59,192 nt of DNA. Origin: Bacteroidaceae bacterium. Its GTDB lineage: Bacteria; Bacteroidota; Bacteroidia; Bacteroidales; Bacteroidaceae. The notes below the pieces were generated by a model that had not been told where the DNA came from, ran no database searches, and saw nothing but the letters and a program-made list of their open reading frames with translations. Below are positions 2,739 through 56,592 of the stretch, piece by piece (within the stretch, counting starts at the first letter, position 1; every line of letters starts with the position of its first letter). A program made the translations under genes and the position numbers. The stretch spans positions 1 to 59,192 of the forward strand of contig JAFZSP010000014.1 in assembly GCA_017619335.1 (NCBI GenBank). Reading direction: 5' to 3'.

Positions 2739-2741
2739 ATG

Positions 2742-4978: not shown

Positions 4979-4979
4979 A

Positions 4980-34914: not shown

Positions 34915-34916
34915 AT

Positions 34917-35315: not shown

Positions 35316-35327
35316 CACTCTTCATCT

Positions 35328-35370: not shown

Positions 35371-35394
35371 TAACACTGAAGCATCCAAGACCAC

Positions 35395-36321
35395 ATGGCA
35401 CTCATTGCGTATCTTCAATTCGGCGACGACAATTCCACTACCCCCATCTACAACGTCTGTGACTACCATTATCATGCCACCCGTCCACACAACAACAAGC
35501 GGCCAGACGGCGATGCACGGTGTGAGCAGATACAGATCACCGTCTATGTTCCACAGAAGTCCGATCCCACATTCTATGAGTGGTTCATCAAGGGTGAGTC
35601 ATTGAGCGGCAAAATACTCATTCAGTTGTCATCGTCTGTTACGGATAATGTAACCACTTATTTCTATAAAAAGGTGGCTTTCTCCGATGCCTTCTGTGAA
35701 TCCATCACAGAGAACTACAGTGCCGCGGAAGGTCAGCTGCGCAAGCTCACACTCTCCATTGTGGCCTCAAAAGTGGAGATGAAGGATATTTCTGGCTCCG
35801 AAATCAAGGCAACAAACGAGGCCTGCATCGCTTTCTATGGAGAAGTCGTTGAACTCGATCTCAATACTAATGTGAAGCCAATTAGTGGCATCACACAATT
35901 CCTCTCATTGGAGACGTTCCACTATGATTGCAAGAGAGCACGCAACTATGAAGGCATACCCTTCGGTGCCCCAGAGACTGCCACATTGGACTTCAGCTTC
36001 AAACTCGAAAAAGCCAGCAAGGGAGCACCTTTCTATTCATCCCTTACAAGCAACGATCCCGTCACATTCTCCTTCCTCTTTGATACAAACTTCGATTCTA
36101 CGAAGGTGTACTTGCATGACTGCGCTTTCGGAGTCGTTGCCAGAGGATACGTCATCGATGTCCGGGAAACATACGACAAAGACACAGGAAGCGAGGGAAA
36201 ACCACAGCTCATGATGATGACTGTCACACTCCTGATAGCCAACATCCTTTTCATCAAAGGACTAGCGACGAATTCGACATCCAAATATGAGAGTTCTGTC
36301 CTGGCAATTACGAACGATTGA
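35395..36321 (+). CDS. Tandem Hcp-Hcp fusion protein
   Basis: 308 residues with two Hcp-like barrels in one chain. Residues about 1-140 contain TFYEWFIKGESLSGKI and FSDAFCESITENYSAAEGQ; residues about 145-295 contain PFYSSLTSNDPVTFSFLF and LHDCAFGVVARGYVIDVRE. Both halves are more diverged than the two single Hcp proteins. Such a double Hcp could form a trimeric ring (pseudo-hexamer) that adapts the trimeric VgrG spike to the hexameric tube, like tail-tube initiators in phages. That role is inferred from its position directly before vgrG (13-nt gap). Confidence 0.7.
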   Translation: MALIAYLQFGDDNSTTPIYNVCDYHYHATRPHNNKRPDGDARCEQIQITVYVPQKSDPTFYEWFIKGESLSGKILIQLSSSVTDNVTTYFYKKVAFSDAFCESITENYSAAEGQLRKLTLSIVASKVEMKDISGSEIKATNEACIAFYGEVVELDLNTNVKPISGITQFLSLETFHYDCKRARNYEGIPFGAPETATLDFSFKLEKASKGAPFYSSLTSNDPVTFSFLFDTNFDSTKVYLHDCAFGVVARGYVIDVRETYDKDTGSEGKPQLMMMTVTLLIANILFIKGLATNSTSKYESSVLAITND

Positions 36322-36334
36322 AAACACTGGAGTT

Positions 36335-42469: not shown

Positions 42470-42859
42470 ATGGGCAACTTCGTATGTATGGGCGCAATGC
42501 TGCAATGCAGTTTCGGGATGGCACCGTCGTCACTGATGGTCACCGTTCCCCTGCGACCTAAATGTGGTAATATGTTGATGGCGAATATCATGGACATCAT
42601 TCCAATGTCAAATGTCATGCCCTTCGGTATGTGTCAGTCACTGGCCAATCCTACGGTGGCAGCTGCCACTGCTGCGGCTTGGGGAACGCTGACTCCGATG
42701 CCTTGTATTCCCGTGATCACTGCACCGTGGGCACCGCCGGGACAGGTGAAAGTTATGAATATGCCAGCCCTCATCAACAACGCCAAGTGCATGTGTGCCT
42801 GGGGAGGTGTCATCTCTGTGAATAATCCCAGCGGTTGTCTGATGACGCAGGGCAAGTGA
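42470..42859 (+). CDS. DUF4280 PAAR-like spike tip protein
   Basis: 129 residues rich in Cys, Met and Pro, matching DUF4280 (MGNFVCMGAMLQCSFGMAPS at the start, MCAWGGVISVNNPSGC near the end). DUF4280 proteins are PAAR-like tips that cap spikes of contractile systems, and are found next to vgrG in Bacteroidetes T6SS and eCIS loci. Conserved Cys residues at both ends may hold a metal, as His/Cys do in PAAR. The protein is only the tip domain, with no fused toxin. Confidence 0.85.
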   Translation: MGNFVCMGAMLQCSFGMAPSSLMVTVPLRPKCGNMLMANIMDIIPMSNVMPFGMCQSLANPTVAAATAAAWGTLTPMPCIPVITAPWAPPGQVKVMNMPALINNAKCMCAWGGVISVNNPSGCLMTQGK

Positions 42860-42902: not shown

Positions 42903-44228
42903 ATGAAAAAGGAAAGGTTCCTGATAATGTTGCTCTGCTGCTGTTGGATGCTCCACGTGGGTGCCCAGCAGATGTGGGTGGAAGATTTCTCCCGCCAGAA
43001 GCGTTACATCTGGAACCGCTCCAGCGTGAAGGTGGAAAAGAAACTGGCGTTGCTGGATTTCATCACCAAGGAAAAAGGCTTCACCTTCACAGCAGATGGA
43101 CAGCAACCCGCAGCGTTCGAGGAAGGCGATGGCGTCATCACCGTCAAGCTGCCAGCCAAGACACGCTTCGTGACCATACAACATCCTGACTACGGACAGA
43201 AGATGTGGCGTGTGCCTGTGAAATACCTCAAACGAAAGAAGCATTATCAAGCCACCCTGCAGACCATCAACGGAGAGAAGGACTACCAGCTGCAGAAGCA
43301 GTGGGTGGTGATGAATATCTCACCGGACAACGCCGTTCTCAAGCTGGATACCACTGTGCAGAGGGTGCGGCAGCAGACGTCCTCCTTCTACCTGCCGTTG
43401 GGTATGCACACCTATCAGGTGGAGGCACCCTTCTATGAGGCTGTGAAAGATTCTTTCCTGCTGACCGACGATGAAAAGGTGCAGTTAGACATCAATCTCC
43501 AGCCCGTTTATTCCTACTTGACAGTGAAGACACCTTGGAAGAAGGCAGAAATCTTTGTCGATGGACAGCACGTAGCCAAGCAGGAAGGCACCAGTCAGAA
43601 ACTGATGGCGGGACGCCACCGTGTCACTGTTTTCAAAGGGAAGGAATGTTGTGTGGATACTTCCATCGTTCTGTCTCCGTCAGAGAAGAAAGTCATCGCG
43701 TTCAACGCCCCCTCTGTGGCTGTCCCCGTCCCGTCAGCAGAGGTTCAGCCTGTCTCCGTTCCCTCTTCCCCTGCTTCCGTCACAGCTGCCCCGCTGTCTG
43801 CCCGCGTCACCCTGTCCACCACCGACTCCATCGCAGAGATACTCGTGGATCGTGTGAAAGTGGGGAAGGGCTCTTGGAGTGGGCAGTTGGCACAAGGTTA
43901 TCACCAGGCGGCCACCCGCAAGGATGGGATAGAGTCTGTCCCCACCGACCTCTGGATCAGAGATTCCTTCCCGCAGGAAGTGCAGTTGGCAGCCCCTCTG
44001 ACGGGTTGTGGAATGTTGAATATCACCAGCAATGTCCAGGGAGCCAAGGTCTTCATTGACAGCGTCTGTGTGGGTGAGACACCTCTCATCACAGCCTGTC
44101 TGCCCACCCGTCGCAACTATGTGGTGCGGCTGGAGAAACCCGGGTATCGGGAAGCACAGCTGACCTCGCAGCCCAAGAGCAACGACTTGCTGGACGTGTA
44201 TATAAAACTCAAAAGAAAGAAAAAATAA
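42903..44228 (+). CDS. Exported PEGA-domain protein of the T6SS cluster
   Basis: 441 residues with a signal peptide (LLCCCWMLHVGAQ) and no later membrane segment, so it is probably periplasmic or outer-membrane associated. Several beta-rich repeats follow; the best are PEGA-like (VYSYLTVKTPWKKAEIFVDG about 195-215; LNITSNVQGAKVFIDSVCVG about 375-395 with RLEKPGYREA). A Pro/Ser/Val-rich linker lies at about 270-300. PEGA modules often bind cell wall or envelope partners, so it could hold the machine in the envelope. No known T6SS family recognised. Its stop overlaps the next start by one base. Confidence 0.6.
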   Translation: MKKERFLIMLLCCCWMLHVGAQQMWVEDFSRQKRYIWNRSSVKVEKKLALLDFITKEKGFTFTADGQQPAAFEEGDGVITVKLPAKTRFVTIQHPDYGQKMWRVPVKYLKRKKHYQATLQTINGEKDYQLQKQWVVMNISPDNAVLKLDTTVQRVRQQTSSFYLPLGMHTYQVEAPFYEAVKDSFLLTDDEKVQLDINLQPVYSYLTVKTPWKKAEIFVDGQHVAKQEGTSQKLMAGRHRVTVFKGKECCVDTSIVLSPSEKKVIAFNAPSVAVPVPSAEVQPVSVPSSPASVTAAPLSARVTLSTTDSIAEILVDRVKVGKGSWSGQLAQGYHQAATRKDGIESVPTDLWIRDSFPQEVQLAAPLTGCGMLNITSNVQGAKVFIDSVCVGETPLITACLPTRRNYVVRLEKPGYREAQLTSQPKSNDLLDVYIKLKRKKK

Positions 44229-44962
44229 TGAAAAGGAGTATTGCGGTCCTTCTGGACGAAGCCAAGAACAAAATGAGCGCCTTCGTGGCACTGGCCAATT
44301 ACAGATTTATGAATCTCTGTGTGGATGCAGAACCTGCGTCGCTGCTGTGTATCACGATTGAGGCCGGTGATGCCAAATTGGATTTGGAAGATGTGGCAGA
44401 CGTGAGCAGCCCGCAGAAGGATCAGTTCGCATTGTTTCCCAAGGAGAACAATCCCGCCCTGATTTTTGCCATCTGCAAAGCGGTGAAGACCGCTCATCCG
44501 GAGTTCAAGGTGGAAGTGAAAGGACAGAACGAGGAAGATGGTGACAACAGCGATGAAAATGATGAAGGCAATGATAGCGATGAAGAAACAGAGAAATACA
44601 TCCTGTTGACAATGCCTGAGATCAATAAGGACCGTCGGGATTTCATTATCAATGGAGTGGATATACTGCAGAAAGCCTGTCAGATGAAACTGGATGCCAT
44701 TTCCGAGGAGTATGTGGTAAAGATTACTGCTAAGTTGGCCCTTGACAAACCAGAAGAGCTGGACGAGGCAAAAGATAACCTCCAGGGTTTGTATGACAAG
44801 CATAAAGATATGCTGGTTGGCTTTACCGACAACAAGAAACAAGCCGTGGAGGAAGCCTACCAACGCTACCTCGCAGAACAGGAGGAGAAGCAGGCCCAGC
44901 AGCAGGAACTCGATGAGGCCCACGGCACAGACAAAGGCTTGAGTATGAACATGGAAGAATAA
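44228..44962 (+). CDS. Acidic cytoplasmic protein of unknown function
   Basis: 244 residues, no signal or membrane segment. A very acidic low-complexity stretch (about residues 98-122, Glu/Asp/Asn/Ser) divides two halves; the C-terminal third is helical, probably coiled coil (residues about 175-230, Lys/Glu/Gln-rich). I recognise no family and see no peptidase motif. It starts on the last base of the PEGA gene's stop and precedes the E1-like gene by 23 nt, so it is a candidate substrate, scaffold or chaperone of the conjugation step, which is speculation. Lysine-rich and cytoplasmic, it could accept a ubiquitin-like tag. Confidence 0.5.
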   Translation: MKRSIAVLLDEAKNKMSAFVALANYRFMNLCVDAEPASLLCITIEAGDAKLDLEDVADVSSPQKDQFALFPKENNPALIFAICKAVKTAHPEFKVEVKGQNEEDGDNSDENDEGNDSDEETEKYILLTMPEINKDRRDFIINGVDILQKACQMKLDAISEEYVVKITAKLALDKPEELDEAKDNLQGLYDKHKDMLVGFTDNKKQAVEEAYQRYLAEQEEKQAQQQELDEAHGTDKGLSMNMEE

Positions 44963-44985: not shown

Positions 44986-46155
44986 ATGATTAGTCCCTTC
45001 AATCAGCAAATGGTTTCCGAAGCTCGCGTGATGGTCGTGGGTTGTGGAGCATTGGGTAACGAGGTGGTGAAGCACCTCGCGCTGCTGGAGGTGGGACTGT
45101 TGGTGTTGGTGGATTTCGATAGGGTAGAGCAGGACAACCTCAGCCGCTCTGTCTGGTTTACCAGTGACGATGCACAGGCTGGACGCTTCAAGGTGGAGGC
45201 AATGGCTGAGAGAATCAGGCAGTTACATCCATCCATGAAGGTACTTCCCATCTGTGGAGATGTTGCCTACGATGTCGGCCTTGGACTCATCAGGACGATG
45301 GATGTGGTCATCGGTTGCGTGGATAACCGCTGGGCACGCTATTGTATCAACCGCCTCTGCATGAGGGCTGGCGTCCCTTGGGTGGACGGCGGAATAGACG
45401 GACTGGAAGGCACTGCGCGAGTCTTCGTTCCTGGCGTGAACTGTTACGCCTGCAACTTAGGTCCCGAGGGCCTGAAAGATATGGCGCGTCGCCAGCCGTG
45501 TGCGGGTGTTATCCGCAGGAATGTGGAAGCCGGGAAAGCCCCAACGACCTCCATTGTGGCATCAATCATTGGTGCCATTGAAGTGCAGGAAGCACTGAAA
45601 TTGATTCAGGATTCAAGATCCAAGTTTCATGTTTCAAGTTTCAAGTGCCAGGATGAAGAGTTTACTTCCCTGTGTGGCAAGATGTTCTACTACGAAGGTC
45701 AGCATCTGACCACCAAGCTTGTCGATTTCCAGGCGTGGGACGAAGACTGTCCGGTACACGAACGCTGGGAACCCATTCAGCAGACTGTATTGACAGCAGA
45801 GACAACAGTCTCTAGTGCCCTCCAGCAGTTGCAGATGGAATTGCAAGCACAGGAGATAACCATCTGTCTCACAGATGACTGCTTCGTGGACTATGTGTTG
45901 CGTCGTGACAACGATAGTCGCCACGAGGTCATGCTGCCCGGACGGGCTGTGGCATCCTTCGTGGAACAAGACAAGGAACTCTGCGGAATACCCTTCAGCG
46001 GGCTCTACCAGCACGAGTGGAGAGAGATTACCGCGTCTTTCCCCTATCAGCACCTGACGTTATCAGCCTTGGGCGTGCCTCGGCAGGCTGTGCTACAGGT
46101 GCAGACAGAGCGGGGAGAATGCTTTGTTGAACTGAATGATAAATATGAAAAATAA
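44986..46155 (+). CDS. ThiF/E1-like ubiquitin-activating enzyme homologue
   Basis: 389 residues. The adenylation domain has the nucleotide motif VVGCGALGNEV (Gly19, 21, 24), the ATP/Mg segment VDFDRVEQDNLSR (Asp43-Arg54), GCVDN (Asp113) and a C-terminal PTTSIVASIIGAIEVQEALK. A CxxC pair (Cys153, Cys156) is followed by Cys172 (QPCAGV), in the position of the E1 thioester cysteine. After about residue 210 comes a ~180-residue extension not usual in ThiF/MoeB, perhaps an E2/Ub docking domain; part of the junction (45604-45650) is encoded by spacer-like repeats. E1 enzymes adenylate the C-terminal glycine of a ubiquitin-like protein and pass it to an E2. Matching Ub-like and E2 genes are in the same cluster. 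Confidence 0.88.
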   Translation: MISPFNQQMVSEARVMVVGCGALGNEVVKHLALLEVGLLVLVDFDRVEQDNLSRSVWFTSDDAQAGRFKVEAMAERIRQLHPSMKVLPICGDVAYDVGLGLIRTMDVVIGCVDNRWARYCINRLCMRAGVPWVDGGIDGLEGTARVFVPGVNCYACNLGPEGLKDMARRQPCAGVIRRNVEAGKAPTTSIVASIIGAIEVQEALKLIQDSRSKFHVSSFKCQDEEFTSLCGKMFYYEGQHLTTKLVDFQAWDEDCPVHERWEPIQQTVLTAETTVSSALQQLQMELQAQEITICLTDDCFVDYVLRRDNDSRHEVMLPGRAVASFVEQDKELCGIPFSGLYQHEWREITASFPYQHLTLSALGVPRQAVLQVQTERGECFVELNDKYEK

Positions 46156-46164
46156 TATAGAAGG

Positions 46165-46950
46165 TTGAAAAGAGACAATAACATAAGCCAAGCGAGCGCA
46201 GAACTGCTGCTGAACTATCTCTTTCCCGAGCTGGCAGAGGAGTGGATTGCTGATGACAAAGGCAGCTTCTATCGCAACTACAATCGTGATATTCTGGCCC
46301 TGTATCCCGACGAGAAGCGGGTGATACTGTCGCGTGACGGTTTTCTGAAGCTTCTGCCTCAAGGACTGCTCTCTGGCGAAGAAGACCTAAAGGACTCGAA
46401 GGATGTTGTTGCCAAGTCCAAGGAACTGGAGCGGCACATCCATCGGCTCTGTGAGGCGTTTCTCCCCATAGACAGCTTGCATTTCCGTCGGAAACTGAAG
46501 ATAGAACAGCAGGTGTCTGAACTGCTGAGTACCCGGCTGGAATACCTCTTGAAGCATTACTTCGGCTTAGACTTGACAGCCGAACAGAACCCCTTCATCA
46601 GGGCCCTGGCTGTGGTGCTTCCTTTCGCTCAACAGTGGAGAGGAGATTTTCCCCTGTTGCGCAGCATGATAGAAAAGCTCTTTGGATGTGAAGTGGTGAT
46701 GACGCAGGGTCGCTGGAGCGAGTCCGACTCCACGCTGAGTTGGCTTCCCTTGGTGCGCTTTGACCTGCAGATTCCCGACTTGTCTCCAGAGGCCTACAGA
46801 ACGTTAATGGCTCAGGTTCAACCCTTTGCCGACTTCATCCGTGAGTGGTTTGTTCCTGCAGAGGTCGTCTGTCAGATGAATATCAAGGAATCTGGACAGC
46901 CTCAACGCACAGATACTCGCCTCACGCTGGACTATAATACACAATTATAA
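46165..46950 (+). CDS. tssG: T6SS baseplate protein TssG
   Basis: 261 residues resembling Bacteroidetes TssG (ILALYPDEKRVILSRDGFLKLLPQGLL; LRSMIEKLFGCEVVM; a C-terminal PFADFIREWFVPAEVVCQMNI). TssG and two TssF form the baseplate wedge. The start is taken as TTG 46165, because no ATG or GTG occurs in the frame until well inside the conserved region; a GAAGG overlaps the start. It lies 9 nt after the E1-like gene and 7 nt before tssK, so the conjugation enzyme is embedded in the baseplate gene run. Confidence 0.75.
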   Translation: MKRDNNISQASAELLLNYLFPELAEEWIADDKGSFYRNYNRDILALYPDEKRVILSRDGFLKLLPQGLLSGEEDLKDSKDVVAKSKELERHIHRLCEAFLPIDSLHFRRKLKIEQQVSELLSTRLEYLLKHYFGLDLTAEQNPFIRALAVVLPFAQQWRGDFPLLRSMIEKLFGCEVVMTQGRWSESDSTLSWLPLVRFDLQIPDLSPEAYRTLMAQVQPFADFIREWFVPAEVVCQMNIKESGQPQRTDTRLTLDYNTQL

Positions 46951-46957
46951 AAGATAT

Positions 46958-48100
46958 ATGTTGGACATCAATTCAAGAATCAAATGGATGCCAGGAATGG
47001 AACTCACCGCCCAGACGTTTCGCAGTCTGAGTGAGGATCTTGATTTCCGCCAACAGCTGGCCTTGCAAGCCGCCTTAGGCAACCATCGTATGGGGCTGTT
47101 GCCTGGTGCAGAATTCATCAACACCGGCTGCTTCGTCAAGAATCGGTTTGAGATGGAACGCTTCCGTTGCTTGGCTGTGCTGCCCTCTGGTCGTCTGGTG
47201 GACGCTGATGAGTCTGTGGCTATTGACATTCCAATGCTCTATGGCACAGAGTATTATCTGACGGTTAGCATCGGACGGAATGTGGTGGAGTTCGAGAAGG
47301 AAGGCATTCCCTATGTGCGTCCGCAGTATGAGTACGCCATCAACACGCTGGAAGAAGTGGAGCAGGCCGACGTCCTGCCCGTGGTGCGTTTCCGTGCAGA
47401 CAATGGTGTCTTCTCGGTGGAAACAGACTTCATTCCGCCCTGTCTGATGCTCAGCGCAGACGCCCGTTTCCAGACCTATATAGGCCGTTATGCAGAGCAG
47501 CTGCAAGCACTGATTGCTCATGCCAACCTGGAAGAAGGGGAGGGGAAACGTGCCCTCCTTCGCTACCTCTTCCGCCTGAAGAGCTATGGGCAGAACAATG
47601 CTGTTCACGACTTCGTCCTTCTCTTGCAGGAAATGGTACAAGCCATTGATTATTATATCGTGACGCCTCATGTGGAAGAGCCAAAGCCTGTCCCGGAACC
47701 CTCGCCCGCAGATGTGGAACGCTGGCTACGGTGGGTGGAAGACTATCTGACTGGAGCGTCCAGCGTGCTGGATCATGTGGTGCTGGAAGACAACACCATC
47801 GATTACTTCGCCTTGCTGGAGCAGGCCAAGAAGGAACTCTATGAGCGCCTCAATCCAGAACTCTATGAGAAATTGCTCCTGAAGATCAAGGGCGAACTGC
47901 GTGAGGAACTCCAGACGCACCTCACCGCAGCCCTGCAGTCCTATGTGGATGATAATGCCAAACCCGAGTTGGGAAGCTTGCTCAGCACAGAACTGCATGA
48001 GAAGCTCCACGGGCAACTCTATCCGGAACTCTACGAGGCACTCTTCAACGCGCTCTATGTTCCCACCCCGGAAGAGGAAGAGTTTATACCTATTATTTAA
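46958..48100 (+). CDS. tssK: T6SS baseplate-membrane adaptor TssK
   Basis: 380 residues with the TssK N-terminal pattern (IKWMPGMELTAQTFRSL, LALQAALGNHRMGLLPGAEF), the shoulder strand DFIPPCLML and a helical middle. TssK trimers link the baseplate wedges to the membrane complex. The last ~110 residues are an acidic helical segment with repeated LYERLNPELYEKLL-type units (three variants), a repeat not usual for the family, in the region that would contact the membrane proteins. Confidence 0.88.
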   Translation: MLDINSRIKWMPGMELTAQTFRSLSEDLDFRQQLALQAALGNHRMGLLPGAEFINTGCFVKNRFEMERFRCLAVLPSGRLVDADESVAIDIPMLYGTEYYLTVSIGRNVVEFEKEGIPYVRPQYEYAINTLEEVEQADVLPVVRFRADNGVFSVETDFIPPCLMLSADARFQTYIGRYAEQLQALIAHANLEEGEGKRALLRYLFRLKSYGQNNAVHDFVLLLQEMVQAIDYYIVTPHVEEPKPVPEPSPADVERWLRWVEDYLTGASSVLDHVVLEDNTIDYFALLEQAKKELYERLNPELYEKLLLKIKGELREELQTHLTAALQSYVDDNAKPELGSLLSTELHEKLHGQLYPELYEALFNALYVPTPEEEEFIPII

Positions 48101-48112
48101 TTACGCGCGCGC

Positions 48113-48571
48113 ATGAATAGCATAGCCATTCCTTTGAAGATTTCTGCCCATGGGCTGGAGAGGCTGACAGACACACGTCAGTCCATCGACAACGCCTTGT
48201 CACTGCTGATGAGTACTCCCTGTTACAGCAGCGTGGCAGACCCTCAGTTCGGTTTCATCTTTAACAACATGCGCTTCGAGATTTTCAATGAGAACGAGGG
48301 CGTGGTCTTCAATTCCTCCGATTCCCCCAACATCTTTGAGGGACCAGAGGGGCTCTATAACAAGAAGATAACGGGTTCTTCCAAGAACCTCAACACGTTC
48401 GCTTCTGAGCTCAAGGAAACCATCCGTCGCTATGAGAAGCGACTGCGGGACATCGAGGTGTCGATGACTTATTTCCGTGAACAACAGCGCATTAATGTGA
48501 CCGTTCGTGGGGTTATCATCGAGACCAAAGCCCCTTATCTCTACCAATCCACAATCAACGTATGGAAATGA
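48113..48571 (+). CDS. tssE: T6SS baseplate gp25-like protein TssE
   Basis: 152 residues of the gp25/TssE family (DTRQSIDNALSLLMSTPCYSSVADPQFGFIF; ELKETIRRYEKRLRDIEVSM). TssE joins the wedge to the first sheath ring. Starts 12 nt after tssK, directly behind a short CG alternation (acgcgcgcgc), and ends 4 nt before tssF. Confidence 0.9.
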   Translation: MNSIAIPLKISAHGLERLTDTRQSIDNALSLLMSTPCYSSVADPQFGFIFNNMRFEIFNENEGVVFNSSDSPNIFEGPEGLYNKKITGSSKNLNTFASELKETIRRYEKRLRDIEVSMTYFREQQRINVTVRGVIIETKAPYLYQSTINVWK

Positions 48572-48575
48572 CCCT

Positions 48576-50282
48576 ATGAAACAAACGATACTTGAAACCC
48601 GCCAACGCGCCAAGGATTTGCTGCAGCAGGCTATCGCCATCTGGCGACAGAGTGACCAGAGTGACTTCTTGGAAGGACTGGAAGACGACCCCGTCTTCTC
48701 ACTTCTGATGATGGCCATTGCCTACCAGGGCAGTGAGATAGACAATGAGATAGCACGCCTGAAGGAAGAGGTGCTGGACGAGTTTGCCCGCAACCTGGCG
48801 CCCTACGAGATGGGACACGCCACACCGGCCACACTGGTGGTACAGACGGCAACGCAAAAGGCTGTGCCAGAGGTGGAATTGAACGCTTCCTCTGTCTTCC
48901 GCCTGGCGTCTTCGCATCCGTTTATTCCGCTGTTACACAGTCGTGTGCTCGGTATCAAGCAGTTCTCAGTGGTGCGCGTGGACGGTCGCCGCTGGAAGGT
49001 GACGCTGGATTTCAGTCAGCCTGTGCGTGACCTCTCTGGTTTCACCTTTGCTGTGGAGGGGCTGGACTTCCGTGACCTGACGGTGACGGTGGGCAAGCAC
49101 CTGGTGCCGCTGATCCGGCCTTGGGATTATTCCGAGCTGCCTTTCAATGAGTGCTTTGCACCTCACAATATTATCTACACCCGCCAGCAGATCTGTAATA
49201 TGTCCATGCTGCCGCTGGAACTGTTTGCACGGCACAACGTCCGCCTCTACTGCATCGACAAGCATCGTCCTGCGCTGTTACTGCCCCAGGAGACAGAGCG
49301 CCTGGAGCTGATGTTTGAGTTCTCTGGCATTACAGACAATTTCCTCTTCGACAAGACCCGCCTCCTGCTGAACACCCTCATTCTGGTCAACGCCCAGCAG
49401 CAGGAAGTAACCCTCTCTGCCCAGCAGCCGCTGGCTCGCATCGCTGGCTTTGACGATGCCGGTGAGAAGAGAGAACTCACCTCCCGCCAATTTATGCAAC
49501 TGCTGCAACCCTCAGAGAACCAAATATATGGAAATGCAGAGCTGATGGTCAGACAGGTGTCGGCAGACCGCTTTAACCAGGGAAGCTTAGTGAAGCTCCT
49601 CAACTGCGTTCTCAATAAATATCATTCCGACTTCTATGCCTTCCGCAACCTCCGTGGAATGACCACAGACCAGATGGTGTATAACCTGCAGGAAGCAATG
49701 ACGGCCCTTGTCAACGTCAGCACAGAAGACGTGATGCGCAGTGTGCCAGGCGTTTATCTGATGCTGAGAGACAAGAGTCAGATGCACAACAAGGACTTCA
49801 GCGTCAGCGTCAGATACCTGACCACAGCCGGAGCTGCCATTAACCAGTTCCTCAATGACACCATCAAGCTGGAGGCACCGTCTGGGTTGGACAATTCAGA
49901 GACAATAGTCATCAAGCAGCCCGTGCAAGGCACTGATGACATCAAGAGCAGAACAGAAATTGACTCACTGCTGCGCTATTACATGCTGACGGGTGACCGC
50001 ATCGTCACTCCAGCAGATATCAAAGTGTTCTGTTTTAAGGAGTTGACCACTCGTTACGGCCTCAGCGAGAGCATGATTAATCGCATCCGTGTGAGTCGTC
50101 GTCAGACCAACAGCCGCAGGGATTGTGGTTACGAGATTGTGGTGGAAATCACCTTGGAGGACAATAGTTTTGTCAAGCGCATCTTTTCCAACAGCCTGCC
50201 CACAGCGGCCATCCTCATGGAGAAAATGCTGGAGATACGCTCTGCCGGCATCTATCCTATCAGCGTCAGTATCAACCTATAA
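48576..50282 (+). CDS. tssF: T6SS baseplate wedge protein TssF
   Basis: 568 residues from ATG 48576 (the longer frame runs into tssE). TssF pattern: DPVFSLLMMAIAYQGSEIDNEI, FARNLAPYEMGHATPATLVV, a central LAPYDWSEL-like IRPWDYSELPFNECF and a C-terminal RVSRRQTNSRRDCGYEIVVEI. It forms the core of the baseplate wedge with TssG and TssE. The ubiquitin-like gene follows after 36 nt. Confidence 0.9.
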   Translation: MKQTILETRQRAKDLLQQAIAIWRQSDQSDFLEGLEDDPVFSLLMMAIAYQGSEIDNEIARLKEEVLDEFARNLAPYEMGHATPATLVVQTATQKAVPEVELNASSVFRLASSHPFIPLLHSRVLGIKQFSVVRVDGRRWKVTLDFSQPVRDLSGFTFAVEGLDFRDLTVTVGKHLVPLIRPWDYSELPFNECFAPHNIIYTRQQICNMSMLPLELFARHNVRLYCIDKHRPALLLPQETERLELMFEFSGITDNFLFDKTRLLLNTLILVNAQQQEVTLSAQQPLARIAGFDDAGEKRELTSRQFMQLLQPSENQIYGNAELMVRQVSADRFNQGSLVKLLNCVLNKYHSDFYAFRNLRGMTTDQMVYNLQEAMTALVNVSTEDVMRSVPGVYLMLRDKSQMHNKDFSVSVRYLTTAGAAINQFLNDTIKLEAPSGLDNSETIVIKQPVQGTDDIKSRTEIDSLLRYYMLTGDRIVTPADIKVFCFKELTTRYGLSESMINRIRVSRRQTNSRRDCGYEIVVEITLEDNSFVKRIFSNSLPTAAILMEKMLEIRSAGIYPISVSINL

Positions 50283-50318
50283 AGTGAAATATCATCGTCA
50301 ATAACGTCAAATAAAGAT

Positions 50319-50636
50319 ATGGAAGAATTCTTTTTGGACATTGTGTATAAGAACAAGACAGTGAGGTTCCGGGTGATGAACCCGGAAGCCCCGCTGGCAC
50401 AACTGATGACCAACCTCCGTCACGCCATCGGCAACGACGGCAAGCTCATCTTCGACTTCCCGTCCATTGATTCCACAGGCGCTCCCCTGGACTATTTCTT
50501 TGGGAAGGAAGACCCCGAGGTGCACGAGATTCGCGTCCTGCGTCCCCGCATCGGACAGACAGACCAGACCCTGGCAGATTATCAGGTCAAGAATGGTGAC
50601 ACGCTCTGCTTGGTGCCAGACCCGTTTCCTGGATAA
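50319..50636 (+). CDS. Ubiquitin-like beta-grasp protein ending in Gly
   Basis: 105 residues. It is predicted to have the beta-grasp order beta-beta-alpha-beta: FFLDIVYKNKTVRFRV, a helix (LAQLMTNLRHAI), GKLIFDFP, IRVLRPR. The C-terminal part (QTLADYQVKNGDTLCLV) matches the last strands of ubiquitin (TL-DY----TL-LV) closely. The chain stops at DPFPG with glycine as the last residue, so it would be ready for activation without processing. A YukD/EsaB-type (type VII) ubiquitin-like protein is the main alternative, but those do not sit with E1 and E2 genes. The stop overlaps the E2 start by one base (TAATG), so the two are co-translated. Confidence 0.85.
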   Translation: MEEFFLDIVYKNKTVRFRVMNPEAPLAQLMTNLRHAIGNDGKLIFDFPSIDSTGAPLDYFFGKEDPEVHEIRVLRPRIGQTDQTLADYQVKNGDTLCLVPDPFPG

Positions 50637-51193
50637 TGAAAGTGGAGGAGTTCGATAGCAGCAAGCTCCGTGGACGTGCCCGTCGGCTGTTCCACGAGTG
50701 GCAGACACTGGAAGAGGGCCTGCGAGGCCGTTCAGATATCCAGTGGCACGTGCAGAAGACCAGTGCCGAAGGGCTGCCCGTCTGCTATCTCATTGACTAT
50801 CACATCCGCAGCATCTGTGGCGTCACCAACGTGGAACACCTGAATGAACCTGGCGTGGACAACGAACCGCTCTATGCAGACCATTTCCGGATGCTGCTGG
50901 AACTGCCTCCCAACTACCCCCAGGTGGATGCGCCGCCGCGGCTGCATTTCCTCACGGCCGACGAGCAGGGACAGCCGATTCCGCACCCTTGGCATCCCAA
51001 TATCCGTTACTTCGGAGAGATGGCTGGACGGGTCTGCATCAATATGGCCGACACCTATACCGACCTCCTTTGGGGCGTTCGCCGTGTGGCGTCCTACCTC
51101 CGTTATGAGACCTTTCACGCCACCCTGGAACCGCCCTATCCCGAGGACCTTCAGGTGGCAGCCTGGGTGAGGAGAGGAGAGTTGAGAGTTTAG
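50636..51193 (+). CDS. E2 ubiquitin-conjugating enzyme homologue
   Basis: 185 residues with a UBC fold: helix 1 (residues 10-30), beta meander with FRMLLELPPNYPQVDAPPRLHF, the catalytic HPN motif (His120-Pro121-Asn122), the active-site cysteine Cys134 in GRVCINM, and the following tryptophan (Trp146) and helix. The HPN-Cys spacing is a few residues longer than in eukaryotic E2s. The C-terminal PYPEDLQVAAWV corresponds to the NP-DPL segment. This is a canonical, apparently active E2, unlike many diverged bacterial ones. It overlaps the ubiquitin-like gene and lies in the T6SS baseplate region. Confidence 0.9.
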   Translation: MKVEEFDSSKLRGRARRLFHEWQTLEEGLRGRSDIQWHVQKTSAEGLPVCYLIDYHIRSICGVTNVEHLNEPGVDNEPLYADHFRMLLELPPNYPQVDAPPRLHFLTADEQGQPIPHPWHPNIRYFGEMAGRVCINMADTYTDLLWGVRRVASYLRYETFHATLEPPYPEDLQVAAWVRRGELRV

Positions 51194-51246
51194 AGTTTAG
51201 AGTTTATAGATTATTGTATAGAAGTATCGCAAGTATGCTAACAAGC

Positions 51247-51309
51247 TTTAATATAAAGCCCCTTAGGGGCGTAATAAGGGCGGCCAGCCATTTCAATGGC
51301 TGGTATGCA
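51247..51309. promoter_or_regulatory. Two small hairpins before the 51310 gene
   Basis: A gcccc/ggggc hairpin (51258-51270) and a perfect 9-bp hairpin ccagccatt/aatggctgg with a 2-nt loop (51284-51303) lie in the 116-nt gap after the E2 gene. The second ends 6 nt before the chosen ATG and could mask the ribosome site. No T run follows. Confidence 0.45.
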
Positions 51310-52476
51310 ATGGCGGGGAAAACGCGTGCCTTTAGGTACGCGACAATGTGTTTCTTGGCCCTCTGCCTGCCGCTGTTGTCGCAGGCGCAGACCGTCAAAC
51401 AGGTGAGCGTCTCTGCCGACGAGCCGTTCACAGATCACCTCACCCTGCAGCAGGACTCCAAGGACACCGACCTGATGGTGAAGTTCCAGTTTGACGAGGC
51501 CAACAACACGCTGACTGTCTCCCTCGTCTCCTACCGCAGCCTCTTCGTCTTCCAGGACGACACGCGCTACCGTCAGGTGGTGCGTCACAAGCGGCTCCGT
51601 CCAGAACGCTTCCCCTACGTGGTCACCGCAGCTGACCACCAGCAGTTCCGCCTCTCCAAGCCGCTGCGCAAGACCATCAGTCACCCCCGTCGGAAGCACA
51701 TCTTCCGGCAGTGGCTCACCACAGAAGGCCTCCTGCCCCGTCCTGCTGAGTTCCAGATGGTCAACGATTTCATCGAGCAGCAGTTTGACATCAAGAACCA
51801 CCAGAGCGTCGTCACCGTCACTCTGCGGGACGTCTTCCTGATGGAGCGTGACACCAAGCACACCAACAAGTGGCAACTGCTGTGCGGCAGGGACTTCAAC
51901 ACCAGATACCAGGTCGCCATCCGTCGCAATCCTTGTTTCGGACTGGAGGCAGACCTGCAGACGGCCTCCCAGAGCTTGACAGACCTCCAGAAGAGTTACA
52001 AATCCTTCCGTGCCAAGTATGGTGGCGGGAAAGTCACCTCACAGGAGGCTATGACGCTTTTCCAGAAGACCCAGAACACCCTGCTCCAGCAGTTCCCTCG
52101 TCGCACAGTCACTTCTGCCTGTCCCGACCTGCAGGGCAGCTGGGACAGCTACAACCTTCTGCTGGATTCCATTTCCATGATGCAGTGTAAACTGGAACTC
52201 CCGCCTGTCCTCACCCCAGAAGAGGAGGCCGTCGGAGGCGGTACCATCGATGCCACCAACATCTGCAGCCGCGCTCGCCAGATTGACGAACTCGTGGGAC
52301 GATGGCTGCTCACCACCGACGAGATTGAGCGGCGCGATATCAAAGCGCAGTGTGCCAAAATCCTCAAGGACACCAACGCCCTGATACGCATCCGTGGGAT
52401 GCAGACCGAGGAGCAGCGCCGCGCCGTCAAGGTGTTCCGCGAGGCAGAACGCTATTATTACAAAACCATTCATTAG
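51310..52476 (+). CDS. Exported protein of the T6SS membrane module
   Basis: 388 residues from ATG 51310, chosen because it begins a signal peptide (MAGKTRAFRYATMCFLALCL ending in SQAQ). No later membrane segment, so it is probably periplasmic. N-terminal half beta-rich (VKFQFDEANNTLTVSLVSYRSLFVF), C-terminal half helical with several Cys. I recognise no family. In position it could stand in for the Bacteroidetes T6SS periplasmic subunits (TssP/TssQ), which cannot be told from sequence by eye. It lies 3 nt upstream of the next exported gene. Confidence 0.6.
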   Translation: MAGKTRAFRYATMCFLALCLPLLSQAQTVKQVSVSADEPFTDHLTLQQDSKDTDLMVKFQFDEANNTLTVSLVSYRSLFVFQDDTRYRQVVRHKRLRPERFPYVVTAADHQQFRLSKPLRKTISHPRRKHIFRQWLTTEGLLPRPAEFQMVNDFIEQQFDIKNHQSVVTVTLRDVFLMERDTKHTNKWQLLCGRDFNTRYQVAIRRNPCFGLEADLQTASQSLTDLQKSYKSFRAKYGGGKVTSQEAMTLFQKTQNTLLQQFPRRTVTSACPDLQGSWDSYNLLLDSISMMQCKLELPPVLTPEEEAVGGGTIDATNICSRARQIDELVGRWLLTTDEIERRDIKAQCAKILKDTNALIRIRGMQTEEQRRAVKVFREAERYYYKTIH

Positions 52477-52479
52477 CCC

Positions 52480-53301
52480 ATGAGCAGAATCCGTTACACC
52501 CTTCTCCTGCTGGTGCTGCCCCTCCTGCTGTCTGCCCAGGGCACACCGCCTGCCGAACAGGACGAACTCTATCTGCTGGAGATGCAGTCCCGTCTGCAGC
52601 TGTTCCTGGACGCCTGGCAGGGACTGGCCTCAGACCTTCAATACAGTTCGTTGGACAGCTTGAAGAGCATGGAGCAGCGCCTGAAACAGTTGGATGCCAA
52701 ATGGCAACTCTACAGTCAGGCACAGCAGATGGACATTGCAGGCGACGAGACCCTGCTGGAAATTGTGGGCAAGATCCAGGTGGCTAAGCAGTCGGCGCAG
52801 GAAAGTCTGGAGAAACAGCAGTCTGCACAGCAGATGCTGAAGGACTTCAGGGACGCCGAGACTTTCATCTCCTCACAGGATACCGTCTATCGGCGACTGG
52901 TGGAGACGACCGCCAAGATGGCGCTTGTCAAGCAGTTGGCGGCACGCTTAGATAAGTTGAAGGGACAGGAACAACTGCGTTTCACCGAGATTCAGAACCA
53001 TTATGATGCCGCCAAGAAAGCCGCAGAGGCCATTCCTGCCCTTCAGGACAGGATGAACAAGCTCCAGGAGCGCTACATCAGCCTCAAGACAGCGTCCGAC
53101 AAGATACAGCAAACCGTCTATCAGCCTTGGATCACGCGCATCAAGGACTACCTCTTGGGAACGGCTGCGGTGGCGGTGATACTGATGTTCTTCAGCATGA
53201 TAACTGCCAAAATCAAGGCCGCCAAGCAGGCGCGCCAGCAGGCCAAGAAACTGAGGGATATGCTCCCGCAAGGGACAGACCGGCAGTATCCGGTGATTTG
53301 A
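52480..53301 (+). CDS. Periplasmic coiled-coil protein with C-terminal membrane anchor
   Basis: 273 residues. Signal-like N terminus (residues 1-20, LLLLVLPLLLSAQ), a long helical, probably coiled-coil, periplasmic part (about 25-215), one transmembrane segment (about 224-243) and a basic cytoplasmic tail (KIKAAKQARQQAKKLRDML). The topology and length resemble the stalk proteins of the Bacteroidetes T6SS membrane complex (TssO-like), but I cannot assign it to a family. It lies between the other exported genes at the end of the cluster. Confidence 0.6.
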   Translation: MSRIRYTLLLLVLPLLLSAQGTPPAEQDELYLLEMQSRLQLFLDAWQGLASDLQYSSLDSLKSMEQRLKQLDAKWQLYSQAQQMDIAGDETLLEIVGKIQVAKQSAQESLEKQQSAQQMLKDFRDAETFISSQDTVYRRLVETTAKMALVKQLAARLDKLKGQEQLRFTEIQNHYDAAKKAAEAIPALQDRMNKLQERYISLKTASDKIQQTVYQPWITRIKDYLLGTAAVAVILMFFSMITAKIKAAKQARQQAKKLRDMLPQGTDRQYPVI

Positions 53302-53344
53302 GGGAATTTAAAATACAAAGAGAAAAATTATTCATCATAGTAGA

Positions 53345-55720
53345 ATGAAGAAGCTATTATTCATATCCGCCCTTGTGGCCCTTTGCCTGACAGGCTGTGA
53401 CCAGGGCCTTCCCCAAGAAGAATTGGATGTCTTCCTGCAGGAGGCCGGCTTCCTGCACGAGAAAGCACCCGCTATGGAAGTTACCAGCCTGGACTTCTCA
53501 CCAGATGACAAGACCTTCACACTGGCCACACGCATGGTCAACGACGTCGGCCCCTACAACCTCGCAGACAGCAACGCCGTTCGCATCGTCGTCAAGGAGA
53601 CGGTGAACAGCATTCAGCAACATCGCTTCCTGCCGCAGCTCACTGCCGTGCGCAACACCGAGGCACAGAAGCTGGCCGCCTCGGGCATCAGCGTGCTCGC
53701 CCTCGTGGATCTCACGCTGCCGCCGACCGCCATAGACCTCCAGCACACCGCTGTGACAGAGATGCTGACCAGCTTCCGTCCAGAGAACCTCTACGTCTCC
53801 TTCTTCTATGGAGACAGCATCTCTGCGCCCCTGCAGGCCACCAACTATGTGATGCGCAATTACTTCCAGCGGAAGGAGACAGACCACAAGTTCCTCTATC
53901 GCGCCATCCTTCAGCAGAAGCAGACGATGGAATCTGGGCTGGCACCGTGGGACCAGGCGGCAGGCCGGATTCTGGTGGTGTTCTCCGATGAGCAGGTCTA
54001 TTTGGACGACGATGCCCCCATGGATTCCGAACACTTTGACCTCCAGCAGCAGCTCCTGCTGCCCGATGCAGGCGCGGTGGAAGCCTTCTACGTCAGCATG
54101 AACCAGGACGCTGAGTCACAGGACGATAACGCCGCCAGCATACTGCAGCTCTTCTGCCAGAACCATCAGGGCCTCTTCCTCCACGGCTTCAACTGGGTGA
54201 CCATCAAGAACGCCTTCTTCGGACGTCACGGCTTGGACGTCTGCACCTATGAGTTTGACTTCGTTAATCCCGACTACAAGGTCTATCGCGGCAACCGCCA
54301 CCACCTCACCCTGGACTTCTTCTCCACCGCCGCAGACAGCCTCGTCTCCAGCGTCACGGCACAGATTCGCAAGGGCACCATCTATGATCCCGTCATCGTC
54401 CACGGGCGGCCCATCGGACTCGTCATCGTGCAGGGTTGTGTCCTGGCGTTCCTGATCTTGGCCCTCGTCTGGCTGATTCTTCAGTTCCTCGTGCCCTTCA
54501 TCCGTTACCGCCTCTTCCTGCGTCACCATGTGGTCACCTATCGGGGGCCTCTCATGAGCACCCAGAACCACTTGCTCAGCCAGACCTGTTACCTCTGCAA
54601 GGCACCCTTCCAGGAAGGAGACCGTGTGGTGGTCAAGTGCCGTCACAGCATGCACAAGCACTGCTGGGACGAGAACGACTATCACTGCCCCGAGTTCGGT
54701 TCGCAGTGTCCCGAGGGCAGTCATTTCTATAATCACCGCAACCTCCTGGACGTCCGCAATGCCACCTTCTATCTCCCCTGGCTGCTCGGAGCCATCGGCG
54801 CGGCACTCCTCGCCTGGATCGCCTTCCTCCTCTGGGCCCATTTCTCTTCCTCTGCCCTTCTGGAGGACATCCTGCGCTGGATGAACCTGATAACCGATGC
54901 AGATAGCCAGCAGTATATCAACGAGTTTGCGGAGCACGAGAAACTGCTGCCGGCCTTCGGCCTCTTCATCAGTTTCTTCCTCACCCTGGTCTTTGCCGCA
55001 CTGGCCATGTACAGTCGCAACGTCCGTCGCAAGTGGCTCTCCATTCTCCTGCGCGCCATCCTGGCAGGACTGTGTTCCATGATGCTGTTCGTCATCACGG
55101 CGGGCGTGGAAGCCGTCTTTAGTTTTGAGGCCTTCTTCTTCCTCCTGGAGTGGATTCCCTGGATTCTGACCGCCTTCATCATTGCCTACGCCAGCACCAT
55201 CCACACCCGCATCCATCTGAAGTTCCGCCGTCTGCTCCTGGCAGCTGTCATTGCCCTGCTGACCATGCATGCCTGGTCCTTCTTCATCTTGGATGCACGC
55301 ATAGACTTCCGCGTCTTCCTGCTCATCAGCTTCCTCGTCTTCGCCGTGGGTCTGGCCATCTGTGTGGCACAGCCCGTCTCCCGTTCCCACCGTTACTTCC
55401 TGCGCGTGGAAGGCCCCGTGAAGACCATGGAGATTGCCCTCTACAAGTGGTTCGCTGCCGACCCCACCAGTGTCGTCACCATCGGCAAGTCCGTAGATTG
55501 CCACCTCCAGCTCTCCTGGGACATCATTGGATTGGTGGCTCCCGTGCATGCAGAGATTCGCAAGAAACAGGACGCCCTCTATCTCATCCCCTTGGAGCCC
55601 GGCGTCACCGCTGCCGGCCAGTCCCTCCCCGTCGGTCGCTGCACATGGCTCTATCAGGACCGCTCATTCACCATCGGCAACACCACCTTCACCTACATCG
55701 AGAAAGACTTCCGCCACTGA
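53345..55720 (+). CDS. Polytopic lipoprotein with RING-H2-like and FHA domains (candidate E3)
   Basis: 791 residues. A lipobox (LCLTGC, Cys18) is followed by a periplasmic part (20-355) with a vWA-like look (VLALVDLTLPP, GRILVVFSDEQVYLDDD). After TM1 (about 358-384) comes a zinc-binding loop with ligands Cys415, Cys418, Cys432, His434, His437, Cys440, Cys448 and Cys455: C-x2-C-x13-C-x-H-x2-H-x2-C, then C-x7-C-x6-C spacing, a RING-H2 order except for the wide last pair. Six more TMs (about 473-675) follow. The C terminus (about 687-787) is an FHA-like domain (VVTIGKSVDCHLQLS, VAPVHAEIRKK, RSFTIGNTTFTYI). Positive-inside loops put RING and FHA in the cytoplasm with Ub, E1 and E2. Ligase activity is inferred. 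Last gene of the cluster. Confidence 0.75.
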   Translation: MKKLLFISALVALCLTGCDQGLPQEELDVFLQEAGFLHEKAPAMEVTSLDFSPDDKTFTLATRMVNDVGPYNLADSNAVRIVVKETVNSIQQHRFLPQLTAVRNTEAQKLAASGISVLALVDLTLPPTAIDLQHTAVTEMLTSFRPENLYVSFFYGDSISAPLQATNYVMRNYFQRKETDHKFLYRAILQQKQTMESGLAPWDQAAGRILVVFSDEQVYLDDDAPMDSEHFDLQQQLLLPDAGAVEAFYVSMNQDAESQDDNAASILQLFCQNHQGLFLHGFNWVTIKNAFFGRHGLDVCTYEFDFVNPDYKVYRGNRHHLTLDFFSTAADSLVSSVTAQIRKGTIYDPVIVHGRPIGLVIVQGCVLAFLILALVWLILQFLVPFIRYRLFLRHHVVTYRGPLMSTQNHLLSQTCYLCKAPFQEGDRVVVKCRHSMHKHCWDENDYHCPEFGSQCPEGSHFYNHRNLLDVRNATFYLPWLLGAIGAALLAWIAFLLWAHFSSSALLEDILRWMNLITDADSQQYINEFAEHEKLLPAFGLFISFFLTLVFAALAMYSRNVRRKWLSILLRAILAGLCSMMLFVITAGVEAVFSFEAFFFLLEWIPWILTAFIIAYASTIHTRIHLKFRRLLLAAVIALLTMHAWSFFILDARIDFRVFLLISFLVFAVGLAICVAQPVSRSHRYFLRVEGPVKTMEIALYKWFAADPTSVVTIGKSVDCHLQLSWDIIGLVAPVHAEIRKKQDALYLIPLEPGVTAAGQSLPVGRCTWLYQDRSFTIGNTTFTYIEKDFRH

Positions 55721-55864: not shown

Positions 55865-56287
55865 CTATTTTCCCGTATCAATCAATTCGCCACAAAGAAC
55901 ATTGACAAAATCAGAGGGAGAAATAACTCTTGGCGAATTGGGATAATGCTTTAAATTGCCTGTCACAAGGAATGATTCATCCATACTCAATGAAACTTCA
56001 TAAAACACTCTGTCGTCTTCATCGGGCATTGACTCCATTGAATTCACCCTTGATGCCTCCACACCATTCTCTATGATATGAGCAATAAGCGAATCGGCAA
56101 CCTCTCGCTGGATGGGAAACTTTGGACGATGAAGCACATCTCCATATTCCGCAATGATGTCTGCATTGAAAATCGGGACAAAGGTCTTCTCTAAAAGAAG
56201 TCTCACCACTTTGGCAGTAGCTGCGTCCGGATGGTGAGTTATCAATGCAGATACAAGGACGTTGGTATCAATCACTGCATATATCAT
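55865..56287 (-). CDS. PIN-domain toxin
   Basis: 140 residues of the PIN family usually labelled toxin component. AVIDTNVLVSALI holds the first Asp, then a mid Glu region (AEYGDVLHRPKF), MPDEDDRVFYEV and ESFLVTGNLKHYP complete the acidic site. It is convergent with the T6SS cluster and overlaps its antitoxin start by 4 nt. It probably cleaves RNA when freed from the RelB-like partner. Confidence 0.88.
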   Translation of the reverse strand: MIYAVIDTNVLVSALITHHPDAATAKVVRLLLEKTFVPIFNADIIAEYGDVLHRPKFPIQREVADSLIAHIIENGVEASRVNSMESMPDEDDRVFYEVSLSMDESFLVTGNLKHYPNSPRVISPSDFVNVLCGELIDTGK

Positions 56288-56592
56288 ACGGACTCTTGTC
56301 TTTTACGTCTTTCTTCCCTTGCGGCACATATCTCTGCATTGATTTCTTCAAGTGTCAGTTCCGCTTCCTGACTGGCCTCTACTGCTCTGCGCTGCTGCAA
56401 AAACAAATCCAGAGCACTGGACTCAGCTGGCCTGCTAACCCTAATAGCAAAAGGAATGCTGCGACTCCTGATGACAGCTTTCACAAAGATATTGAAAGCC
56501 GTGTTTGCACTCATGCCAAACTGTTCACAAAGTTCGTCAAACTGAGACTTCATCTGCGAGTCTAACCTAACTGTAACTGCCGACTGCGACAT
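56284..56592 (-). CDS. RelB/DinJ-family antitoxin
   Basis: 102 residues with the RelB/DinJ ribbon-helix-helix N terminus (AVTVRLDSQMKSQFDELCEQFGMSANTAFNIFV) and a charged C-terminal tail that should neutralise the PIN toxin. RelB antitoxins repress their own operon: a ggcattttgcc palindrome (56623-56633) and a -7-like TTATTTTGC (minus strand, 56646-56654) lie upstream and could be the operator and promoter. PIN rather than RelE as partner is a known mixed pairing. Confidence 0.88.
   Translation of the reverse strand: MSQSAVTVRLDSQMKSQFDELCEQFGMSANTAFNIFVKAVIRSRSIPFAIRVSRPAESSALDLFLQQRRAVEASQEAELTLEEINAEICAAREERRKRQESV

Follow-up and report, generated by a model that had tools for sequence, protein, structure and literature searches.

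The window analysed here is a stretch of 59,192 nucleotides from a Bacteroidaceae bacterium (contig JAFZSP010000014.1 of assembly GCA_017619335.1), part of a genome (G000) of 3.59 Mb that is 88.9% complete. It carries a type VI secretion system (T6SS) gene cluster into which the genes of a predicted ubiquitin-type conjugation cascade are set. The cluster is a plus-strand run (30188-55720) of 21 genes with no intergenic gap longer than 81 nucleotides. Its first part consists of genes for ClpV, TssB, TssC, three Hcp proteins, VgrG, g40619, a DUF4280 protein, a PEGA protein and g44228, and its second part of genes for a ubiquitin-activating (E1) enzyme, TssG, TssK, TssE, TssF, a ubiquitin-like protein (UBL), a ubiquitin-conjugating (E2) enzyme, g51214, g52480 and a RING protein. 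The E1 gene lies 9 nucleotides before tssG, 36 nucleotides separate TssF from the UBL, and the UBL and E2 genes overlap by one nucleotide. An earlier note on this DNA had described the four cascade genes, the single T6SS run, the 9-nucleotide gap and the position of the UBL and E2 genes after TssF; its coordinates and gene arrangement proved correct, all four genes being open reading frames at these positions:

44986-46155, plus strand: E1-like enzyme of 389 residues, with a ThiF adenylation domain (Pfam ThiF, 1.6e-44) and a C-terminal extension
50319-50636, plus strand: UBL of 105 residues, single-domain, ending in ...PDPFPG with Gly105 as the last residue (predicted beta-grasp model; sub-threshold ubiquitin-fold matches)
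50636-51193, plus strand: E2 of 185 residues, with W119-H120-P121-N122 and candidate catalytic C134 (UQ_con, 2.6e-5)
53345-55720, plus strand: candidate ubiquitin ligase (E3) and membrane hub of 791 residues, with a lipobox-vWA-transmembrane-RING-transmembrane-FHA layout

Relatives were collected by a scan of GTDB species contigs, which yielded 34 named loci with E2 proteins 58-74% identical to that of the window. Near-duplicate rows were dropped from the alignments, which keep 34/35 (A1), 32/35 (A2), 31/35 (A3) and 31/33 (A4) rows; residue counts use all rows. The E1 has one ThiF stretch (residues 6-255), in which D43, D45, N51, K69, D113 and the candidate catalytic C172 are invariant in 33/33 sequences, as are the likely zinc ligands C153xxC156...C255xxH258. 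The best PDB matches of the E1 profile are UBA7, UBA6 and UBA1 (6.3e-30), with BubCD at 5.2e-12, and PADLOC E1-E2 models match the protein at 2e-21. The UQ_con match of the window E2 scores 24.3 bits, below the Pfam cut-off of 27, and the family was found in 29/31 E2 members at E<=0.1; the HPN motif and C134 are invariant in 35/35 sequences. When rows from a second T6SS clade (clade B, described below) and from L056 were added, the combined E2 profile matched UBE2K of the PDB at 6.9e-9. By their sequences, the first protein has the adenylation domain and candidate catalytic cysteine of an E1, and the second has the predicted UBC fold, HPN motif and candidate catalytic cysteine of an E2; the cysteines are those that the earlier note had named.

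The UBL has only sub-threshold ubiquitin-fold matches in Pfam (YukD 0.002, ubiquitin 0.051), and an AlphaFold2 model with a fold search gave a beta-grasp at a mean predicted local distance difference test score (pLDDT) of 86.6. Its C-terminal residue is glycine in 35/35 sequences and in the 120 homologues listed, and is a single glycine, not a diglycine. As modelled, the protein is a beta-grasp modifier with an exposed C-terminal glycine, and it would need no processing because the glycine is already the last residue.

The RING protein begins with a lipobox (C18), followed by a vWA-like domain (104-298), a transmembrane segment at about 365-383, a RING-H2-like site (C415-C455), six more transmembrane segments and an FHA-like domain (684-786); its charges place the RING and FHA domains in the cytoplasm and the vWA domain outside. 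The zf-RING_2 family was found in 34/34 members scanned (best 8.9e-5), with the window protein sub-threshold, and the RING-H2-like pattern appeared in 1/20,000 shuffles of the window protein. All eight zinc ligands are invariant in 35/35 sequences of the window's clade (clade A) and present in 6/6 clade B proteins. The protein is a candidate for the E3 of the cascade.

The order E1-TssG-TssK-TssE-TssF-UBL-E2-g51214-g52480-RING is identical in 34/34 named loci, and all ten genes are present in 32 of them, the other two being cut by contig ends (L023 starts at TssE and L028 at TssK). The stretch from E1 to RING is ordered alike in five additional clusters (L057, L058, L059, L098, L099), which may overlap the named loci. 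The nearest named records at the locus are from Prevotella, Prevotellaceae, Bacteroidaceae and Bacteroidales, and are by title mostly rumen or gut assemblies. One named record that has the complete block is L034, of the cultured rumen isolate Prevotella sp. ne3005. Mean column identity is highest for the UBL (0.86), followed by E2 (0.74), E1 (0.72), TssK and TssE (0.67 each), TssF (0.65), TssG (0.63), g51214 (0.60), and g52480 and the RING protein (0.55 each). Because the gene set recurs in 34/34 loci and in a second clade, it is not a product of chance. The earlier note had called for a survey of the four-gene set, and had held that its proposal would fall if the folds were absent or the genes were not conserved; the set is kept with this T6SS type, and the UBL fold model, the E1 and E2 sequence profiles and the conserved order all agree with the proposal as far as the gene set goes. 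The control of assembly, loading or disassembly by tagging, which the note also put forward, is a hypothesis. Two further genes belong to the block:

51214-52476, plus strand: g51214, conserved block member (tblastn match in 34/34 loci)
52480-53301, plus strand: g52480, coiled coil with a C-terminal transmembrane segment, judged by eye (tblastn match in 34/34 loci)

No convincing family was found for g51214 in Pfam or NCBIfam scans. In 2/34 loci (L021:11803-14928 and L028:5732-8974), a single frame runs through g52480 and the RING gene, which may be a fusion or an assembly error; for the RING rows of these two loci, an internal start codon of the long frame was taken as the beginning. The remaining T6SS genes of the window are as follows:

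30188-32437, plus strand: ClpV/TssH-type AAA+ ATPase, first of the run (AAA_2 9.9e-59, AAA_lid_9, ClpB_D2-small; named ClpV by position)
32485-32949, plus strand: TssB, sheath small subunit, by position (without a Pfam match; matches the gene preceding tssC in other T6SS loci)
32980-34365, plus strand: TssC sheath subunit (PF17541 TssC, 1e-100)
34447-36321, plus strand: three Hcp/TssD genes, at 34447-34839, 34917-35315 and 35395-36321 (PF17642 TssD; 2.1e-29, 4e-23 and 8.9e-13)
36287-40615, plus strand: VgrG of 1442 residues (Phage_base_V, 5.3e-17)
42470-42859, plus strand: DUF4280 protein, presumably PAAR-like (PF14107, 3.8e-29)
46165-46950, plus strand: TssG (baseplate), by position (profile matches the genes that occupy this position in other T6SS clusters, 7.9e-12 and 6.4e-10)
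46958-48100, plus strand: TssK (baseplate; NCBIfam VI_chp_4 2e-11, under its cut-off)
48113-48571, plus strand: TssE (baseplate, gp25-like; GPW_gp25 2e-8)
48573-50282, plus strand: TssF (baseplate; hhalign 96.9% to a protein of a canonical T6SS locus)

The T6SS gene complement of sheath, tube, spike, baseplate and ClpV is thus represented, with TssB and TssG assigned by position. TssE also aligns with a canonical-locus protein (hhalign 93.4%). TssF and TssG are the weakest labels of the cluster: neither has a Pfam match in the window, the genes at the place of TssG in other T6SS loci also have none, the canonical-locus protein matched by TssF reaches T6SS_TssF at 0.0031 only, and a search of the PDB with the TssF and TssG profiles alone gave no T6SS match. 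The VgrG has a long extension beyond its spike part, possibly a built-in effector. The product of g44228 (44228-44962) has a sub-threshold match to ribosome recycling factor (1.3e-6), which a common helical pattern may explain.

Clade B comprises six loci (L050-L055), with TssC 41-42% identical in the four genomes measured, and has the order UBL-E2-three membrane proteins-RING-E1-TssG-TssK. The UBL, E2 and RING protein are present in 6/6 loci and the E1 in 5/6, the sixth starting at a contig end; the E1 adjoins a tssG-like gene in 4/4 genomes with both labelled, and the UBL-E2 pair is preceded by VgrG and DUF4280. The characteristic residues of E2 and RING are kept in 6/6 loci, the E1 residues in the five that were read, and the UBL beside E2 ends in ...VPIAG in 6/6. 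A JAMM-bearing JAB domain is found in the third membrane protein (sub-threshold Prok-JAB matches of 0.002-0.004 in 4/4 scanned). In the window cluster no JAB was found among the Pfam matches, and no JAMM-like motif in window frames longer than 100 residues; g52480 is not supported as a JAB protein that lacks its JAB domain (hhalign 0.2%). A genome search for JAB found none at E<=0.001 in five other clade A genomes and one RadC-sized match on another contig of G000, and this search is insensitive because it found the cluster JAB in only 2/6 clade B genomes. A second UBL copy in one clade B cluster (L054:11108-11539, minus strand) lacks the terminal glycine, and one genome (G022) carries both clades of cascade-bearing, or Ub-type, T6SS, on contigs C15 and C53 (L055 and L002). 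A Ser/Thr kinase (Pkinase 1.8e-45) and a PP2C phosphatase (4.7e-17) are encoded in the same region of clade B genome G032, and two kinase-like frames were seen by eye in the same region of G133; because of these genes, phosphorylation may also act.

The distribution of the cascade follows that of particular T6SS lineages. Among 301 genomes of the family, E2 was found in nine and TssC in 22, and all nine E2-positive genomes are within the 22. The 23 TssC copies in the family consist of five of clade A (all in E2-positive genomes), five of clade B (four in E2-positive genomes) and 13 others, of which 12 are in E2-negative genomes and one is in G318, which also holds a clade A copy. In three further E2-positive genomes of the genus (G060, G032, G022), TssC is on the cascade contigs. 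The tie to T6SS holds for two T6SS lineages but not for Bacteroidales T6SS in general, as only 9/22 T6SS-positive family genomes have the cascade.

Among 395 genomes across the phylum, E2 was found in three: G000 and two with cassettes outside T6SS (L096 and L097). These two, whose genomes belong to another taxonomic order, and L083 (in G076, of the same taxonomic order but another family) carry E1-UBL-E2, a JAB-motif protein and a vWA/RING-type protein; the stretches read hold no T6SS gene, and TssC was not found elsewhere in their genomes either. Genes for SrfB (1e-213) and for a Virul_Fac protein (1.8e-139), presumably SrfC, follow on from the L083 cassette, whose UBL has four residues after the glycine, as if the JAB protein cuts them. 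The cascade is built into the gene order of this T6SS type, as the earlier note had it, but is not unique to it; because cassettes occur outside T6SS, it is a module which T6SS clusters have either taken up or hold in common with other loci. Unrooted E1, E2 and RING trees set the non-T6SS cassettes apart from both clades, and the clades from each other, with support of 95-100 at the deep splits; they include 13 clade A rows (out of 40 loci), 5-6 clade B rows and three others, and for some rows the whole frame between two stop codons was used ahead of column trimming. A single recruitment into T6SS is possible.

The membrane complex of these systems also appears to differ. The T6SS-iii of Bacteroidota uses a TssNQOPR membrane complex and is termed the phylum's only type in the available text of PMC10781749. 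TssN was above cut-off in 9/25 genomes searched, namely eight that gave no E2 match and G318, which carries T6SS of both types; it was above cut-off in 0/11 genomes with only Ub-type TssC, one of which (G340) has a sub-threshold match at 3.3e-5. The genome-level association of TssN absence with the Ub type has a Fisher p of 0.011, kinship being ignored. Loss of TssN was rejected as a feature exclusive to the Ub type, as TssN was also not found in G113, G265, G291, G141 and G197, where E2 was not found. TssR and TssO were found in 4/4 canonical genomes, 0/5 Ub-type genomes and not in G291. In the last genome (L088, L102), a T6SS is present, TssN, TssO, TssR and E2 were not found, and a kinase-FHA protein (Pkinase 8.2e-23, FHA 5.8e-13) is encoded; its T6SS may, going by these genes, be a further Bacteroidota type.

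Taken together, the predicted proteins make up four components of a cascade, with invariant active-site and zinc residues, a terminal glycine and a fixed place among baseplate genes. The reading preferred here, which is rather probable, is that the UBL becomes attached, through its C-terminal glycine, to a component of the baseplate or tail tip of its own T6SS, probably under the control of the membrane RING protein. The E1 would adenylate and charge the UBL by way of C172, and the E2 would receive it on C134. The cytoplasmic RING would hold the UBL-charged E2 where the baseplate and tail tip dock at the membrane, so that tagging would mark a docked or mis-assembled baseplate and gate assembly or firing. 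The tag might license, block or clear the machine; in clade B, it would be taken off by the membrane JAB protein. The tails of T6SS and of phages are related. Tagging of tail parts has a precedent, because a bacterial ISG15-like system attaches UBLs covalently to the phage central tail fibre, according to the available text of PMC11364771.

Several observations weigh against conjugation to the baseplate. No target lysine stands out, as TssG and the DUF4280 protein have no invariant lysine and TssE, TssF and TssK have one or two each. Searched against the PDB, the window-clade E2 profile alone reached no E2 at E<=0.01, and at E<=10 its best match was unrelated and one E2 appeared at 0.77. Judged in the alignment by the phosphothreonine motif, the FHA domains of both clades lack the usual phosphothreonine residues, and therefore may be structural only. 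One genome (G197) has a clade B TssC but E2 was not found, its T6SS contig ending before the UBL place. The cousin cassettes L083, L096 and L097 lie in genomes without TssC and show that the cascade can serve something else, and in L096 and L097 the RING zinc site is largely lost while E1, UBL and E2 are kept.

The loss of most zinc ligands in L096 and L097 bears on an alternative of low but appreciable probability: that E1, UBL and E2 conjugate while the RING protein is a structural part of the membrane complex, its zinc site not that of an E3. The layout of the protein parallels those of TssR (lipobox, vWA) and TssN (transmembrane bundle, cytoplasmic domain) as these are described in the available text of PMC10781749, and genomes whose only T6SS is of the Ub type gave no TssN, TssO or TssR; the RING protein may be the new membrane dock. 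As a sequence homologue of TssN or TssR it was rejected, hhalign against 26 proteins of one canonical stretch (L106, L107) giving 1.5% at best, and the g51214 and g52480 profiles had no match among the same 26 proteins (best 15.2%, for g51214). The last ligand pair (C-x6-C) is wider than the canonical C-x2-C, but wider last pairs are described for bacterial RINGs in the available text of PMC11354881. Against a merely structural role, all eight ligands are maintained throughout clades A and B alongside E1, E2 and UBL, and RING families are the commonest Pfam matches of the protein and its top match in the PDB, although only at E 0.063.

It is improbable that the target is instead cargo, for instance an effector, Hcp or VgrG, with the UBL serving as a signal for loading or delivery and leaving the cell together with the payload. 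The cassette is in the same run as the Hcp, VgrG and DUF4280 genes, the clade B UBL-E2 pair is downstream of VgrG and DUF4280, and the window VgrG is very long; but in clade A the UBL and E2 genes follow TssF and the E1 gene precedes TssG, not beside the cargo genes, and the membrane location of the candidate E3 suits docking rather than loading.

Most bacterial E1-E2 systems whose role is known act against viruses; for CBASS (cyclic-oligonucleotide-based antiphage signalling system) this follows the title of PMC10097602. One might accordingly suppose that the cascade is an independent tagging system, for defence or membrane stress, that sits within the T6SS cluster without acting on the T6SS; kindred cassettes lie next to SrfB (L083) or other genes (L096, L097) in genomes where TssC was not found. 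This is considered rather doubtful, given the fixed order among baseplate genes in 34/34 loci, the retention of the four genes in two T6SS clades of differing order, the presence of TssC in 9/9 E2-positive family genomes, and the finding that no PADLOC model matches the UBL, E2 or RING protein at E<=0.01. Least probable is that the UBL is a non-covalent scaffold, like the ubiquitin-like domain of EccD or TssN, with E1 and E2 serving something else, as the glycine is last in all 35 clade A sequences, in the 120 homologues listed and in the 6/6 clade B UBLs next to E2, and the window UBL gene overlaps that of E2.

Conjugation of the UBL to the baseplate or tail tip admits a bolder and decidedly tentative extension, in which the inner-membrane dock of the T6SS would itself be the RING E3, in place of TssNQOPR; UBL tagging there might license or clear the baseplate, and the JAB protein of the sister clade might reset it, so that the machine as a whole would be ubiquitin-gated. 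Already on the preferred reading, these Prevotella-like gut bacteria probably mark a part of the injection apparatus that they build, in a way similar to the labelling of proteins with ubiquitin in human cells. A cascade belonging to a contractile injection machine would be turned on the cell's own components, with a substrate that is large and open to assay, and would offer a genetic model for early E1-E2-RING roles before eukaryotes. Bacteroidota would also hold T6SSs outside the TssN-based type presented in the available text of PMC10781749, and surveys keyed on TssN would miss them.

Outside the T6SS run, the window contains a small defence island on the minus strand, in which a HerA helicase gene (PADLOC HerA 5.5e-245) adjoins one for a SIR2 protein (6.1e-166) at 684-4178, a defence pair of the HerA-SIR2 type, and abuts a pair (4265-6329) that matches PADLOC AbiLii (1.6e-19) and AbiLi (4.7e-79). 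Directly 3′ of the cluster (55865-56592, minus strand) is a pair that resembles, by eye, a PIN toxin and a RelB/DinJ-type antitoxin.

Among known systems, T6SS-iii (GA1-GA3) is like the window cluster in TssC, Hcp, VgrG, the ClpV-type ATPase, the baseplate genes and its Bacteroidales hosts, whereas the window cluster adds E1, UBL, E2 and the RING protein; of the TssNQOPR set of T6SS-iii, TssN, TssO and TssR were not found in the 88.9% complete genome. The operon of Ca. Caldiarchaeum, in the available text of PMC5654768, likewise has ubiquitin, E1, E2 and a RING-H2 E3 in one block, but its RING is a small protein rather than part of a 791-residue membrane protein, and its pro-ubiquitin is cut by Rpn11 to a diglycine, whereas the window UBL has a single glycine and no JAB was found in the cluster. 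The antiviral, ISG15-like BilABCD also has E1, E2 and UBL and is reported to tag a phage tail part (PMC11364771, available text); in the available text of PMC11354881, BilA has two ubiquitin-like domains and BilD two adenylation halves, whereas the window cluster has one of each and a T6SS context. The tandem-ubiquitin BilA, two-half E1 and JAB that mark BilABCD were not found in the cluster. Type II CBASS Cap2 and the Bub E1-E2 systems share the E1 adenylation domain, but the window E1 and E2 are separate genes accompanied by a UBL and a RING protein; the E1-E2 fusion with a cGAS-like enzyme that marks CBASS was not found, no cGAS-like protein being among the Pfam matches of 20 cluster proteins and g44228. 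The eukaryotic FHA-RING ligases RNF8 and CHFR also combine FHA and RING in one protein, but differ in domain order, membrane anchoring and vWA, and the window FHA is without the usual phosphothreonine residues. A survey of human-gut T6SS (PMC4714493) mentions neither ubiquitin nor ThiF, and excluded Prevotella except for P. copri and P. stercorea. No T6SS with an E1-UBL-E2 cascade was described among the matches listed in the open-licence literature. A 2011 survey by Burroughs and colleagues reportedly covered bacterial RING/E2/YukD-like operons and may include some of the genes discussed here. Both T6SS and enzymes of these kinds are known, and their union in one conserved cluster was not found in the literature searched. 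Because the defining features of Bil, CBASS and T6SS-iii were tested and not found, the cluster is classed with none of them: it is a T6SS variant with a built-in ubiquitin-type cascade.

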